From Syntrophomonadaceae bacterium (GTDB taxonomy: Bacteria; Bacillota; Dethiobacteria; DTU022), in contig PWSG01000101.1 in assembly GCA_003564055.1 (NCBI GenBank), positions 1-5,441 of the forward strand: 5,441 bases of DNA. The letters run 5' to 3'. The position numbers were made by a program, and so were the translations under genes. This document shows, one piece after another, positions 1 through 5,103 of this stretch (position 1 is the stretch's first letter; each line of letters starts with the position of its first letter). Under the pieces are notes generated by a model. The model did no database searches. It was not told the DNA's origin and was given only the letters and a program-made list of their open reading frames with translations.

Positions 1-24
1 TCCCTGCGAGTTTGATAACACTAC

Positions 25-1950: not shown

Positions 1951-1979
1951 TTGTCATTAATCGATTGATGTTATATAAT
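1951..1979 (+). promoter_or_regulatory. Sigma-70 promoter of the trkA-trkH-holA unit
   Basis: TTGTCA (1951-1956) and a perfect TATAAT (1974-1979) are spaced by 17 bases, the optimum. Transcription would start near 1986, just upstream of the structured leader and about 180 bases before trkA. It is the best promoter in the window. Confidence 0.85.
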
Positions 1980-1985
1980 AAAAGC

Positions 1986-2142
1986 AGTTTAAAAGACCGC
2001 CCAAGGCAGGCTTTTCTTAAAATGGACATGTCGGGGTATAGCCTCCACGCCAGGAGGAAATTGCCGGGGTTGCGGTCAAAAATAGATTTGTATTTAAATT
2101 TTTCTCCCTGATGAGGCAGCGTAGCCGCTGTCTCTTTTTTTT
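1986..2142 (+). ncRNA. Candidate riboswitch-like leader of trkA-trkH, ligand unknown
   Basis: The leader begins at the predicted start site. A closing stem GACCGC (1995-2000) / GCGGTC (2072-2077) continues through CC (2001-2002) / GG (2068-2069) and GGCA (2005-2008) / TGCC (2062-2065), with small bulges. Inside are a weak TTTT/AAAA hairpin (2012-2022), the palindrome GACATGTC (2025-2032), and a hairpin CCTCC (2042-2046) / GGAGG (2053-2057) with loop ACGCCA. The motif CGGGGT occurs at 2032-2037 and 2065-2070. GGAGGAAA (2053-2060) can alternatively pair with TTTTCTCC (2100-2107), which would break the domain. An intrinsic terminator follows before the trkA ribosome site. A compact domain plus terminator is typical of a transcription-controlling riboswitch. 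I could not match it to ydaO/yuaA, M-box, cobalamin, TPP, SAM or c-di-GMP patterns from memory. Na+-, K+- or c-di-AMP-related sensing is inferred only from the genes controlled. Confidence 0.6.
2113..2142 (+). terminator. Intrinsic terminator within the trkA leader (attenuator)
   Basis: GAGGCAGCG (2113-2121) pairs with CGCTGTCTC (2126-2134), nine pairs with one G-T wobble, around the loop TAGC, followed by eight T residues (2135-2142). It lies downstream of the promoter and only 4 bases before the trkA ribosome site. It must therefore be conditionally bypassed for trkA to be expressed. Confidence 0.9.
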
Positions 2143-2166: not shown

Positions 2167-3573
2167 ATGCGTATCATTATTGTTGGTGGTGGCGGGGTAG
2201 GCTATGAGCTGGCCCGCAGCCTTTCAGAAAAAGCCCAGGATGTTGTTGTAATAGAGAAAAATGAGGTCAAGGCCAGGCGCTTTAAAGAAGCGCTCGATGT
2301 TATGGTTATTGAAAAAAATGGAGCTAACGCCGCTGTCCTGGAAGAGGCTGAGATAAAAAATGCAGATATGATGATTGCTGTTACCCAGGTTGACGAGGTA
2401 AACATTATTGCCTGTATGCTGGCAAAACAATATGATGTTCCGATTACAGTTTGCAGGATCCGCAATTCAGGATTCGCGGAAGATTCTTCAGTTTTAACCC
2501 CCAAACAACTTGGTATCGATATTGTAATTAACCCCGAGCGGGTTGCCGCTATGGAAATATCTAAAATGCTGCATTTTCCAGAAGCAGCGGAAGTGGAATA
2601 TTTCAACCGCGGTAAAGTTATGATGCTTGGAGTAGTAGTCACTCCGGATGCGGATATAATTGGAGTGCCGCTTGTAAAATTACCAATGAAAACCGATGCT
2701 ATCATTGTTGGTATAAGTAAACCTGAAGGCAAATTCATCGTTCCCGGCGGTGATGATGTAATCCAGCCCGGCGATAAAATTTATTTGTTGGGTAAAGCAA
2801 GCACCTTAAAAGATATTAGCTCCCTGCTGCACCACGAAACAACCAGGATAAGCCAGGTAAGTATACTTGGCGGGGGGATGATCGGCCGTCAGCTTGCCCG
2901 CTTGTTGGAAAATAGCAAGCAGCAGTTTACTGTTAAGCTGATTGAAAAAAACGCAGAGCGCTGTGAAGAGTTGTGCCATGATCTGAATAAAACTTTAGTT
3001 GTCCAGGGCGACGCTACCGAGATTGCCATGCTTAAGGAAGAAGATACCGACTGGGCAGACGCGGTTATTGCGGTAACGGGAGACGATCGTAACAATATCG
3101 TGGCAGCGCTTTTGTCTAGGCAATTTGGAGTTAATAAAATAATATGTGAAGTAATGAAGCCTCAATACGTGCCCGTATACAAAACTTTGGGCATAGACAG
3201 CCTTATTAACCCCCGCCTGCTGGCAGCAGCCCAGATTATAAGGTTAATTCACAAGGAAAAAGTTGTTGCCCTTTCGATCTTGCAGGATGAAAAAGCGGAA
3301 ATTATTGAAATAGTACTGCCTGAAACGGCTAAAGCAGCTAATAAAAAAATTGCTGATGCCGGTCTGCCGCACGGTATGTTGATCGGTTCTATAGTGCGTA
3401 ATGATGAAGTCATCATCCCCAATGGCAGTACGCAATTGCTGCCCGGGGATCACCTTGTTATATTTGCTGTGCCGAAAGTAAGCGTTAAACTTGATCGCTA
3501 CTTTGCCAGTGCAGCAGGGAAAGAAGAGAGGGAGCATCTTCGCAATAAGTTAACTAATATTGAGAAAGAGTGA
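2167..3573 (+). CDS. trkA: Trk potassium uptake system, NAD-binding regulatory protein TrkA
   Basis: Cytoplasmic gating subunit that assembles as a ring under TrkH and couples nucleotide binding to K+ flux. The 468 residues have the duplicated architecture of TrkA: RCK_N (about 1-125), RCK_C (about 145-215), a second RCK_N (about 229-350) and a second RCK_C (about 370-440), then a charged tail. Both Rossmann folds carry GxGxxG (Gly7/Gly9/Gly12 and Gly235/Gly237/Gly240) and an acidic residue ending beta-2 (Glu30, Glu260). The second half keeps the canonical GDAT (281-284). The first half has Lys50-Asn51-Gly52 where a Gly-(Asn/His)-Gly type motif is usual, so nucleotide binding there may differ. 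trkH follows 54 bases later and control is probably set by the terminator-containing leader. In other Firmicutes, RCK_C domains of K+ transporters can bind c-di-AMP; that is not shown here. Confidence 0.95.
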   Translation: MRIIIVGGGGVGYELARSLSEKAQDVVVIEKNEVKARRFKEALDVMVIEKNGANAAVLEEAEIKNADMMIAVTQVDEVNIIACMLAKQYDVPITVCRIRNSGFAEDSSVLTPKQLGIDIVINPERVAAMEISKMLHFPEAAEVEYFNRGKVMMLGVVVTPDADIIGVPLVKLPMKTDAIIVGISKPEGKFIVPGGDDVIQPGDKIYLLGKASTLKDISSLLHHETTRISQVSILGGGMIGRQLARLLENSKQQFTVKLIEKNAERCEELCHDLNKTLVVQGDATEIAMLKEEDTDWADAVIAVTGDDRNNIVAALLSRQFGVNKIICEVMKPQYVPVYKTLGIDSLINPRLLAAAQIIRLIHKEKVVALSILQDEKAEIIEIVLPETAKAANKKIADAGLPHGMLIGSIVRNDEVIIPNGSTQLLPGDHLVIFAVPKVSVKLDRYFASAAGKEEREHLRNKLTNIEKE

Positions 3574-3627: not shown

Positions 3628-5103
3628 GTGCGCAAAATTCGCATCTTTTACCTGGTCGGCATAATGCTCCTTTTCTTAGCCCTGGCAATGTTCCTGTCAT
3701 CTCTCTGGTCATTCAGCCAGCAGGGTCCTGACCGGCTTGCTTTCTTAACGGCAATCTTGATTACCTCTGCCGCCGGCGGTTTTATTTACTGGTTCTTTTC
3801 TCCTTCAAAAGGAAGAGAGCTAAGTATTGTCGAAAACTTTACCCTTGTTACAATAGCCTGGTTTGCAGCCGGCATATTTGGTGCATTGCCCTATCATTTT
3901 TATGGTGTTTTTGATGGAAACTATCTGCATGCATTTTTTGAATCTGTGTCGGGTTTTACTACCACCGGCGCTACCCTTATTGAAGATATAGAAGTTTTAC
4001 CCCGTGGGATATTACTCTGGCGAAGCTTTACCCAGTGGCTGGGAGGAATGGGAATTATTGTCCTGTTTTTGGCTATCTTGCCCCGGTTCGGGTTTCGCAG
4101 TATGACCATGTTCAAAGCCGAATTGCCAGGTCCGGTGGCTGAAAGAGTTGTGCCGCGGGTTGTCGAAACAGCGCGCCGTCTCTGGCTTATTTACGTAGTT
4201 TTAACTCTTGCCCAGATGCTGCTTTTAATGTTCAGCGGGCTTAGTTTTTATGACTCCCTGTGCCATGCTTTTACAACTATGCCCACAGGTGGTTTTTCCA
4301 CATACAATGCCAGTATTGCCGCCTTTAACAATCCTATGGCTGAAATTGTGATTATTCTTTTTATGCTTTTTGCGGGGATAAACTTTGCTCTCTACTTTCG
4401 CCTTATTCGCGGTGATTATAATATATATAAAAACCCCGAACTGCGTTTTTACCTGGTAATAATAGCAGCCGGGATCATCCTGGTCACCATCAATACCTAT
4501 GATTTCTCGGAAGGGGGCTTTTTCACAGCCCTGCGCCAGAGCGCGTTCCAGGTAATTTCCATAACGACTACTACAGGTTACGCTACGGCTGATTTCAATG
4601 CCTGGCCGAGCTTTTCCCGTCTTTTTTTACTGCTGCTGATGTTTTTTGGCGCCTGTGGTGGTTCAACAGGGGGTTCTATGAAACAGATACGCTGGCTGTT
4701 GATGATTAAGTACGCACTGCGTGAAATTCGCCAGGTTATTCATCCTTCGGCGATATCTTCAGTAAAACTGGGCGAACACCATGTTAGCGACGAAGTTCTC
4801 CGCCCTGTTATGGCTTTTGGATTTATTTATGTTACATTAACCGCACTGGCTACCCTGGCCCTGGCTTTCATGGGACTTGATTTTGATACTGCTTTTTCTG
4901 CAGTAGCGGCAACAATTGGCAATGTCGGTCCCGGCCTTGGCGGTGTAGGTCCTCTGGAAACCTACATGAATATTCCGCCTGCCGGGCAAATGCTTTTAAC
5001 CGTGATGATGGTTGTTGGTCGCCTTGAAATCTACACTGTTTTAATTATATTTTTACCTGAATCAAGGCTACTCTGGTCAAGAAATATTAAAAGGAAGGGC
5101 TAA
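3628..5103 (+). CDS. trkH: Trk potassium uptake system, membrane subunit TrkH
   Basis: Integral membrane K+-translocating subunit of the Trk system, partner of TrkA. Translation starts at GTG with GGGAGG 7 bases upstream. The 491 residues are typical of TrkH and longer than most KtrB proteins. The four pore-loop repeats are visible by their filter segments: TTTGAT (111-116), MPTGGF (218-223), TTTGY (314-318) and GNVGPG (431-436). The glycine-rich stretch 341-350 (GACGGSTGGS) corresponds to the intramembrane gating loop of the third repeat, followed by a basic segment. GRLE (464-467) lies in the last membrane-helix region. Hydrophobic helices run throughout, beginning at residues 6-27. No pore element is missing. 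K+ uptake is secure from the family; whether it is coupled to H+ or Na+ cannot be told. Its stop lies five bases before the holA start, implying co-transcription. Confidence 0.96.
   Translation: MRKIRIFYLVGIMLLFLALAMFLSSLWSFSQQGPDRLAFLTAILITSAAGGFIYWFFSPSKGRELSIVENFTLVTIAWFAAGIFGALPYHFYGVFDGNYLHAFFESVSGFTTTGATLIEDIEVLPRGILLWRSFTQWLGGMGIIVLFLAILPRFGFRSMTMFKAELPGPVAERVVPRVVETARRLWLIYVVLTLAQMLLLMFSGLSFYDSLCHAFTTMPTGGFSTYNASIAAFNNPMAEIVIILFMLFAGINFALYFRLIRGDYNIYKNPELRFYLVIIAAGIILVTINTYDFSEGGFFTALRQSAFQVISITTTTGYATADFNAWPSFSRLFLLLLMFFGACGGSTGGSMKQIRWLLMIKYALREIRQVIHPSAISSVKLGEHHVSDEVLRPVMAFGFIYVTLTALATLALAFMGLDFDTAFSAVAATIGNVGPGLGGVGPLETYMNIPPAGQMLLTVMMVVGRLEIYTVLIIFLPESRLLWSRNIKRKG
5091..5099 (+). 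promoter_or_regulatory. Ribosome binding site of holA inside the trkH 3' end
   Basis: AAGGAAGGG lies within the last codons of trkH, 9 bases before GTG 5109. Because the site is read by ribosomes finishing trkH, translation of the two genes may be coupled. Confidence 0.75.

Follow-up and report, generated by a model that had tools for sequence, protein, structure and literature searches.

A putative c-di-GMP-I-derived RNA with an eroded aptamer domain and a conserved 3' end upstream of trkA in a Syntrophomonadaceae bacterium

The stretch of DNA considered here, 5,441 nucleotides from a Syntrophomonadaceae bacterium and referred to below as the window, encodes a rubrerythrin, a fumarylacetoacetate-hydrolase-family protein, TrkA, TrkH, and the start of HolA. 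All features discussed lie on its forward (+) strand. A promoter with 11 of 12 consensus bases, TTGTCA-17-TATAAT at 1951-1979, is the best of 14 promoter-like sites across the window (shuffles: mean 9.5), and transcription from it, with a start site placed by the -10 box, would yield a terminated RNA of about 157 nt (1986-2142). This RNA is predicted to contain a domain at 1995-2077 closed by the stem P1 (5' arm GACCGC, 1995-2000; 3' arm GCGGTC, 2072-2077), an A/T-rich linker (2078-2103), and a 31-nt 3' module, CTCCCTGATGAGGCAGCGTAGCCGCTGTCTC, at 2104-2134. The 5' part of the module, CUCCCUGAU (2104-2112), is unpaired in the terminated form; the remainder belongs to an intrinsic terminator (2113-2142) made of a hairpin at 2113-2134, with nine pairs of which six are G-C and a 4-nt loop, and a run of eight T at 2135-2142. 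The trkA gene (2167-3573; NF007039, 476 bits against a cut-off of 293; PF02254, PF02080) is followed by trkH (3628-5103; PF02386, 230.7 bits). Because trkA starts only 24 nt 3' of the T-run, the RNA of the element is unavoidably also the trkA leader. A first-pass annotation of this DNA had recognized the near-consensus promoter, the closing stem, and the terminator with its eight T residues, and all three stand.

The fold of 1986-2142 (-49.6 kcal/mol, z = -2.40, with 2 of 200 shuffles equally good) has a moderate excess of energy, and conservation is the stronger evidence of structure. In the predicted full-length fold the first five pairs of P1 have a probability of 0.99, as does the terminator. 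As judged by sequence, then, the element has both its own promoter and its own intrinsic terminator, as a small RNA would. Some other candidate signals nearby were set aside. An operator-like palindrome in the promoter spacer was equalled in 64 of 1000 shuffles; in the window (1955-1970) and its relatives, many copies have CATC at the start of the spacer and GAT at its end, an inverted repeat within chance. The sequence CUGAUGA at 2108-2114, which we take to be a hammerhead-type motif, was dropped by eye because the GAAA strand is absent downstream. The region 5' of the rubrerythrin gene (95-215) was also rejected as a structured RNA, with no energy excess (z -0.30) and no similarity past about position 80 in the loci searched. 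Positions 1-80 themselves are 73-83% identical in five relatives, in some of which they adjoin an opposite-strand gene resembling, by eye, ketol-acid reductoisomerase.

A DNA search with positions 1940-2166 gave matches in 30 of 60 relatives, of which 28 (L001-L028, all from the window's family) were used; L029 and L030, short and weak matches outside the family, were left out. Two loci from further searches, L101 and L102, bring the total to 30 copies, while L103, a one-mismatch match within a coding frame of genome G033, was excluded. L022, which lacks the domain, took no part in the analyses of P1, covariation, and antiterminator. A regular expression for the promoter (TTGNCN-16..18-TATAAT) matched 23 of the 30 copies. 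The family genomes with CSSed names presumably derive from soda-lake sediments. L030, from a genome of the same order, carries a T-box leader (263-501 on the reverse strand, 123.6 bits) unconnected to the element.

The first-pass annotation had proposed a possible new, perhaps ion-sensing, riboswitch for trkA, and had allowed for a divergent known class. This second option comes near the mark, as position and alignment relate the domain to the c-di-GMP-I-GGC aptamers of RF03167. In G002, a member of the window's genus, the leader that occupies this place before trkA reaches 58.8 bits where the RF03167 cut-off is 59, and copies in G015, G016, G022, G024, G029, and G035 score 60.4-72.1 bits and have the same 3' end as the window. 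An alignment of 10 of the 30 leaders reveals a common GGC, retained at 2005-2007 in the window, together with the common stem and 3' strand, and makes the points at which the window departs visible. The aptamer is intact in L023-L028, not in the window. L012 scores 24.1 bits, well below the cut-off, and at E up to 1 the remaining copies scanned matched no c-di-GMP model. Scanned alone against 4227 Rfam families at E up to 10, the window's leader has only ten chance-level matches, all below their cut-offs; none is to a c-di-GMP model, so the gathering threshold of RF03167 is not reached, and none is to the ydaO-yuaA, DUF1646, or nhaA families that the first-pass annotation had named for such a scan. 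The whole window, scanned in the same way, likewise had chance-level matches only. Between the stem arms there is little common sequence, and the interiors are entirely different even among the genomes of genus g4. We nonetheless regard it as very probable, from position and alignment, that the window's domain descends from a c-di-GMP-I aptamer.

Every one of the 43 family genomes has an RF03167 match at E up to 0.1, and 38 have one above the cut-off; the module accompanies one copy per genome only. At least two other c-di-GMP-I copies, L033 and L052, have a downstream GGCAGCC complementary to GGCTGCC or GGTTGCC of the aptamer; because they carry such comparable complementarity, the module resembles an expression platform of this type whose sequence has become fixed. 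The window's own genome, G000, holds three c-di-GMP-I-GGC riboswitches above the cut-off (L105, L106, and L107; 65.8-66.4 bits), yet has no GGDEF or EAL match in an assembly that is 74% complete. By eye, these three precede genes for a secreted camelysin-like protein, a MORN-repeat-like protein, and a small protein. Aptamer decay is not simply a matter of lost c-di-GMP enzymes: GGDEF was not found in G000 and G009, but G032 and G034, with 24 and 21, also have replaced cores.

Another cyclic-dinucleotide leader, ydaO/yuaA (RF00379), is known at K+ transporters, and the first-pass annotation had seen no sign of its pattern here. Indeed, RF00379 has no match in the window's leader, in G000, or in the window's genus, and control of the window by c-di-AMP through this class was rejected. 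Under stricter filters the family is found in 11 of 43 family genomes (genera g10, g11, g14, g16, g17, and g18) and is missing from 32, with the c-di-AMP synthase domain PF02457 present in 41 of 43, G000 included. The genera of the RF00379-bearing group also contain all six intact copies of the element that face a convergent gene.

Sensing of c-di-GMP has probably been lost in the window's copy, judging from the predicted pairing and the aligned contact positions. The ligand contacts of class I aptamers are G20, A47, and C92, as given in PMC4744006. The base before CGGUC, which we take as C92, is C in all seven intact or near-intact copies, another base in 10 of the 22 eroded copies, and G2072 in the window, where A47 has no confident alignment; this mapping rests on our own alignment. 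We expressed antiterminator formation as the number of module bases, of 17, expected to pair with the P1 3' strand and linker before the 3' arm of the terminator exists, a thermodynamic quantity computed for the ligand-free RNA. All seven copies that are intact or near-intact for RF03167 are predicted to form a strong antiterminator (10.1-13.7 of 17 bases), and the window none (0.0 of 17); its linker lacks the AGG(A) that pairs with CCUGA in intact copies. No mutually exclusive terminator and antiterminator are thus predicted in the window, in agreement with the first-pass annotation, which had found no strong antiterminator; the two alternatives it listed, 2041-2045 with 2113-2117 and 2053-2060 with 2100-2107, are possible by sequence but absent from the predicted folds.

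Among the 22 eroded copies, the predicted number of antiterminator bases is at least 9.3 in seven, 5.5 in L016, and at most 0.9 in 14. With a strong antiterminator predicted in seven and a partial one in L016, switching may persist in some eroded copies. Full-length folds predicted without ligand give a terminator probability of at least 0.89 in all 22 eroded copies; of the seven intact copies, four have at most 0.17, and three have 0.68, 0.90, and 0.99.

Two parts of the element have been kept. The first is P1. Over 26 distinct leaders, 98.5% of the 130 cells for its five outer pairs hold a standard pair, and at three of the five both sides have changed. The paired percentage is inflated by the way the arms were chosen, since the 5' arm of the trkA clade was fixed 15 nt after TATAAT, the 3' arm was picked for best pairing, and the arm of L027 was set by hand. 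In 500 shuffles, which ignore the relatedness of the genomes, the observed values were reached 0 times for the paired percentage, 0 times for two-sided cells, 3 times for the count of pairs with such changes, and 43 times for the number of pair types.

The second is the 3' module. Of the 30 copies, 23 share all 31 nt exactly; in the other seven the differences lie mostly in or adjoining the loop, two copies also differing in CCUGA. The conserved stretch spans both arms of the terminator, G-U pair included, and extends to the loop in 23 copies. Across trkA in 15 of the genomes with the identical 31-mer, the longest invariant run is 5 in 1392 aligned bases, third positions have a mean identity of 46%, and the tree built on them has a total length of 8.0 substitutions per site (15 of 17 genomes were compared; L008 and L009 were left out because they did not match the start-motif expression). 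Pairing with an antiterminator does not account for this invariance, because all 14 copies that have the domain and lack the antiterminator are among the 23 with the identical 31-mer.

The module is confined to the family in the genomes we searched. A covariance model of it, R1, finds a single strong copy per genome (52.3-76.5 bits, the window's at 76.5; next best 28.2) in 30 of 43 family genomes, a match that holds by construction for the 30 copies from which R1 was built. The remaining 13 include several incomplete assemblies as well as the near-complete G017 (97%), G031 (97%), G033 (94%), and G027 (93%). The 17-mer at 2104-2120, with at most one mismatch, is likewise found in 30 of 43 family genomes, in one of them (G033) within a coding frame. 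The exact module pattern is absent from all 28 other genomes of the order and from all 392 genomes outside the family in a phylum sample, in which it matched five of the six family members included. In G013 the promoter and the module are kept and the domain between them is gone.

Four kinds of neighbour lie next to the 30 copies: trkA follows 18, a PF00999 Na/H-exchanger-family gene with a TrkA-type protein follows two, holA follows three, and six face a convergent gene for a GH57 branching enzyme (four calls tested with Pfam, two made by likeness); one copy stands at a contig end. For the six convergent copies the distance from the T-run to the end of the facing gene is about 1-123 nt, and because only reading frames of at least 80 aa were listed, a very small one may lie there. 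The element is thus kept irrespective of its neighbour, as a small RNA would be, though 18 of 30 copies precede trkA. Were a terminator that is always active no more than a burden, one would expect it to decay in front of trkA, trkH, or holA.

We give about an even chance to the following account of these observations: the element is a one-per-genome RNA derived from a c-di-GMP-I-GGC riboswitch, predicted to be always terminated in the window's genome, and likely to be a small RNA that acts in trans by way of its 3' module. It is likely that the terminated RNA itself, which also forms the trkA leader, is the conserved product. For the first-pass annotation, a terminator lying between a promoter and its gene made sense only if regulated, an argument that overlooks the terminated RNA as a possible product. 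The ancestor would have been an 'off' switch: closure of P1 by c-di-GMP would have released the 5' arm of the terminator from the GCUGCC..UCAGG antiterminator strand. Erosion of the core and the antiterminator would then have left a constitutive terminator in the window. Selection may now keep the P1-capped RNA of about 157 nt, whose 3' end consists of unpaired CUCCCUGAU, a candidate seed, and the terminator hairpin, with trkA presumably served only by polymerases that read through.

The weakest step of this account is the action in trans, whose chance we put at about even. The RNA might pair with ribosome-binding sites of the AGGGAG type. The complement of CUCCCUGAU, AUCAGGGAG, is commoner than its reversed pattern 2-14 nt 5' of ATG in all 43 genomes; it includes and overlaps a common ribosome-binding sequence, with which this enrichment is confounded. 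The starts that recur behind AUCAGGGAG among the loci read, named by eye and not claimed as targets, belong to a histidine-kinase-like protein (four loci), a secreted protein (six), and a V-type ATPase subunit F-like protein (two). Against a small RNA speak the 18 copies followed by trkA and the two followed by the exchanger and TrkA, which would suit control of K+ genes in cis, as well as the switching that may persist in seven of the 22 eroded copies and L016.

Alternatively, the element may be a cis-acting attenuator, in which a putative protein rather than a small molecule binds the module and sets read-through into the next gene, while the aptamer core decays freely. We consider this main rival unlikely, if still a serious contender. 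The K+ genes behind 20 of the 30 copies fit it well, and so does the extent of the conservation: a protein site might likewise take in both terminator arms with the G-U pair, and also the loop, which is conserved in 23 copies. However, six copies face a convergent gene and three precede holA.

It appears improbable that the window's copy, divergent as it is, still works as a c-di-GMP 'off' switch of trkAH. G002, in the same genus, has a nearly intact aptamer and a strong predicted antiterminator before trkA, P1 and the GGC at 2005-2007 are retained in the window, and GGDEF, the mark of diguanylate cyclases, was found in 41 of 43 family genomes. Yet the window's leader matches no c-di-GMP model at E up to 10, has no predicted antiterminator, and carries G at the position taken as C92; nor does its genome, at 74% completeness, have a GGDEF or EAL match. 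About as improbable is a functionless relic, a dead riboswitch whose terminator has merely not yet been lost. Cores that differ widely among genomes, and the domain-less copy of G013, are what such decay would produce; drift, however, would not be expected to leave 31 nt identical in 23 copies while third positions of trkA average 46% identity, nor P1 covarying.

The six intact copies facing the GH57 branching-enzyme gene raise the further idea that read-through from them silences the convergent gene by antisense control and that the window's copy is a derived leftover; c-di-GMP switches top all riboswitch families in antisense tendency according to PMC9943018. This is very unlikely for the element as a whole, because the next gene in the window is co-directional and the invariance there is left unexplained. 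Least of all can we credit an undescribed riboswitch for Na+, K+, or another ion: although the element sits before a K+ uptake operon, its orthologues share no conserved core to form a binding site, no antiterminator is predicted in the window, no meaningful Rfam match was found, and the neighbour is not always a K+ gene.

How does a terminated, riboswitch-derived RNA compare with systems already described? With RF03167 riboswitches the element shares the P1 stem, the position of the GGC, and, in intact relatives, a terminator arm complementary to the 3' strand of the aptamer; it differs in that the window has neither a model match nor an antiterminator, has G at the C92 equivalent, and is conserved in the expression platform instead of the aptamer. 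The merRNA of Bdellovibrio bacteriovorus, massively expressed at 445 nt and proposed as a c-di-GMP store, is also a c-di-GMP riboswitch RNA with no tie to a downstream gene, as are the six intact convergent copies here (PMC3627812). Unlike merRNA, which is an intact riboswitch, the present RNA keeps its 3' end while its aptamer erodes, though it is intact in L023-L028. Class I c-di-GMP switches of Clostridioides difficile are uniformly 'off', and five have no detected downstream coding sequence (PMC6200980); a review lists one orphan and two associated with antitoxin antisense RNAs (PMC11477304). Neither an invariant 3' module nor eroded aptamers are described in the available text of these two papers. 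In Bacillus thuringiensis, the c-di-GMP-I leader Bc1 has a terminator that works at any ligand level, much as we predict for the window, but the Bc1 aptamer is conserved and binds c-di-GMP, and the leader, with two terminators, is discussed as regulating adjacent genes (PMC11218506). Among the titles listed in an open-access literature search on riboswitch-derived or gene-less c-di-GMP RNAs, there was no such case beyond the papers cited here, and a search of open-access papers for the module 17-mer in RNA and DNA letters found none.

The element is very probably a c-di-GMP-I-derived RNA, its sensing probably decayed and its 3' end conserved. In the usual riboswitch the aptamer is conserved and the expression platform changes fast, an arrangement that is reversed in this element. 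We tentatively propose, at a little under an even chance, that a riboswitch is turning into a trans-acting small RNA, in which the expression platform has become the functional part and the aptamer passes from intact and ligand-controlled in the convergent copies, through eroded in the window, to deleted in G013. A terminator in a leader need not imply regulation of the gene that follows it. If the 3' end does act in trans, this family would offer a natural series from metabolite switch to small RNA, in which members with an intact aptamer, an eroded one, or none could be compared side by side.
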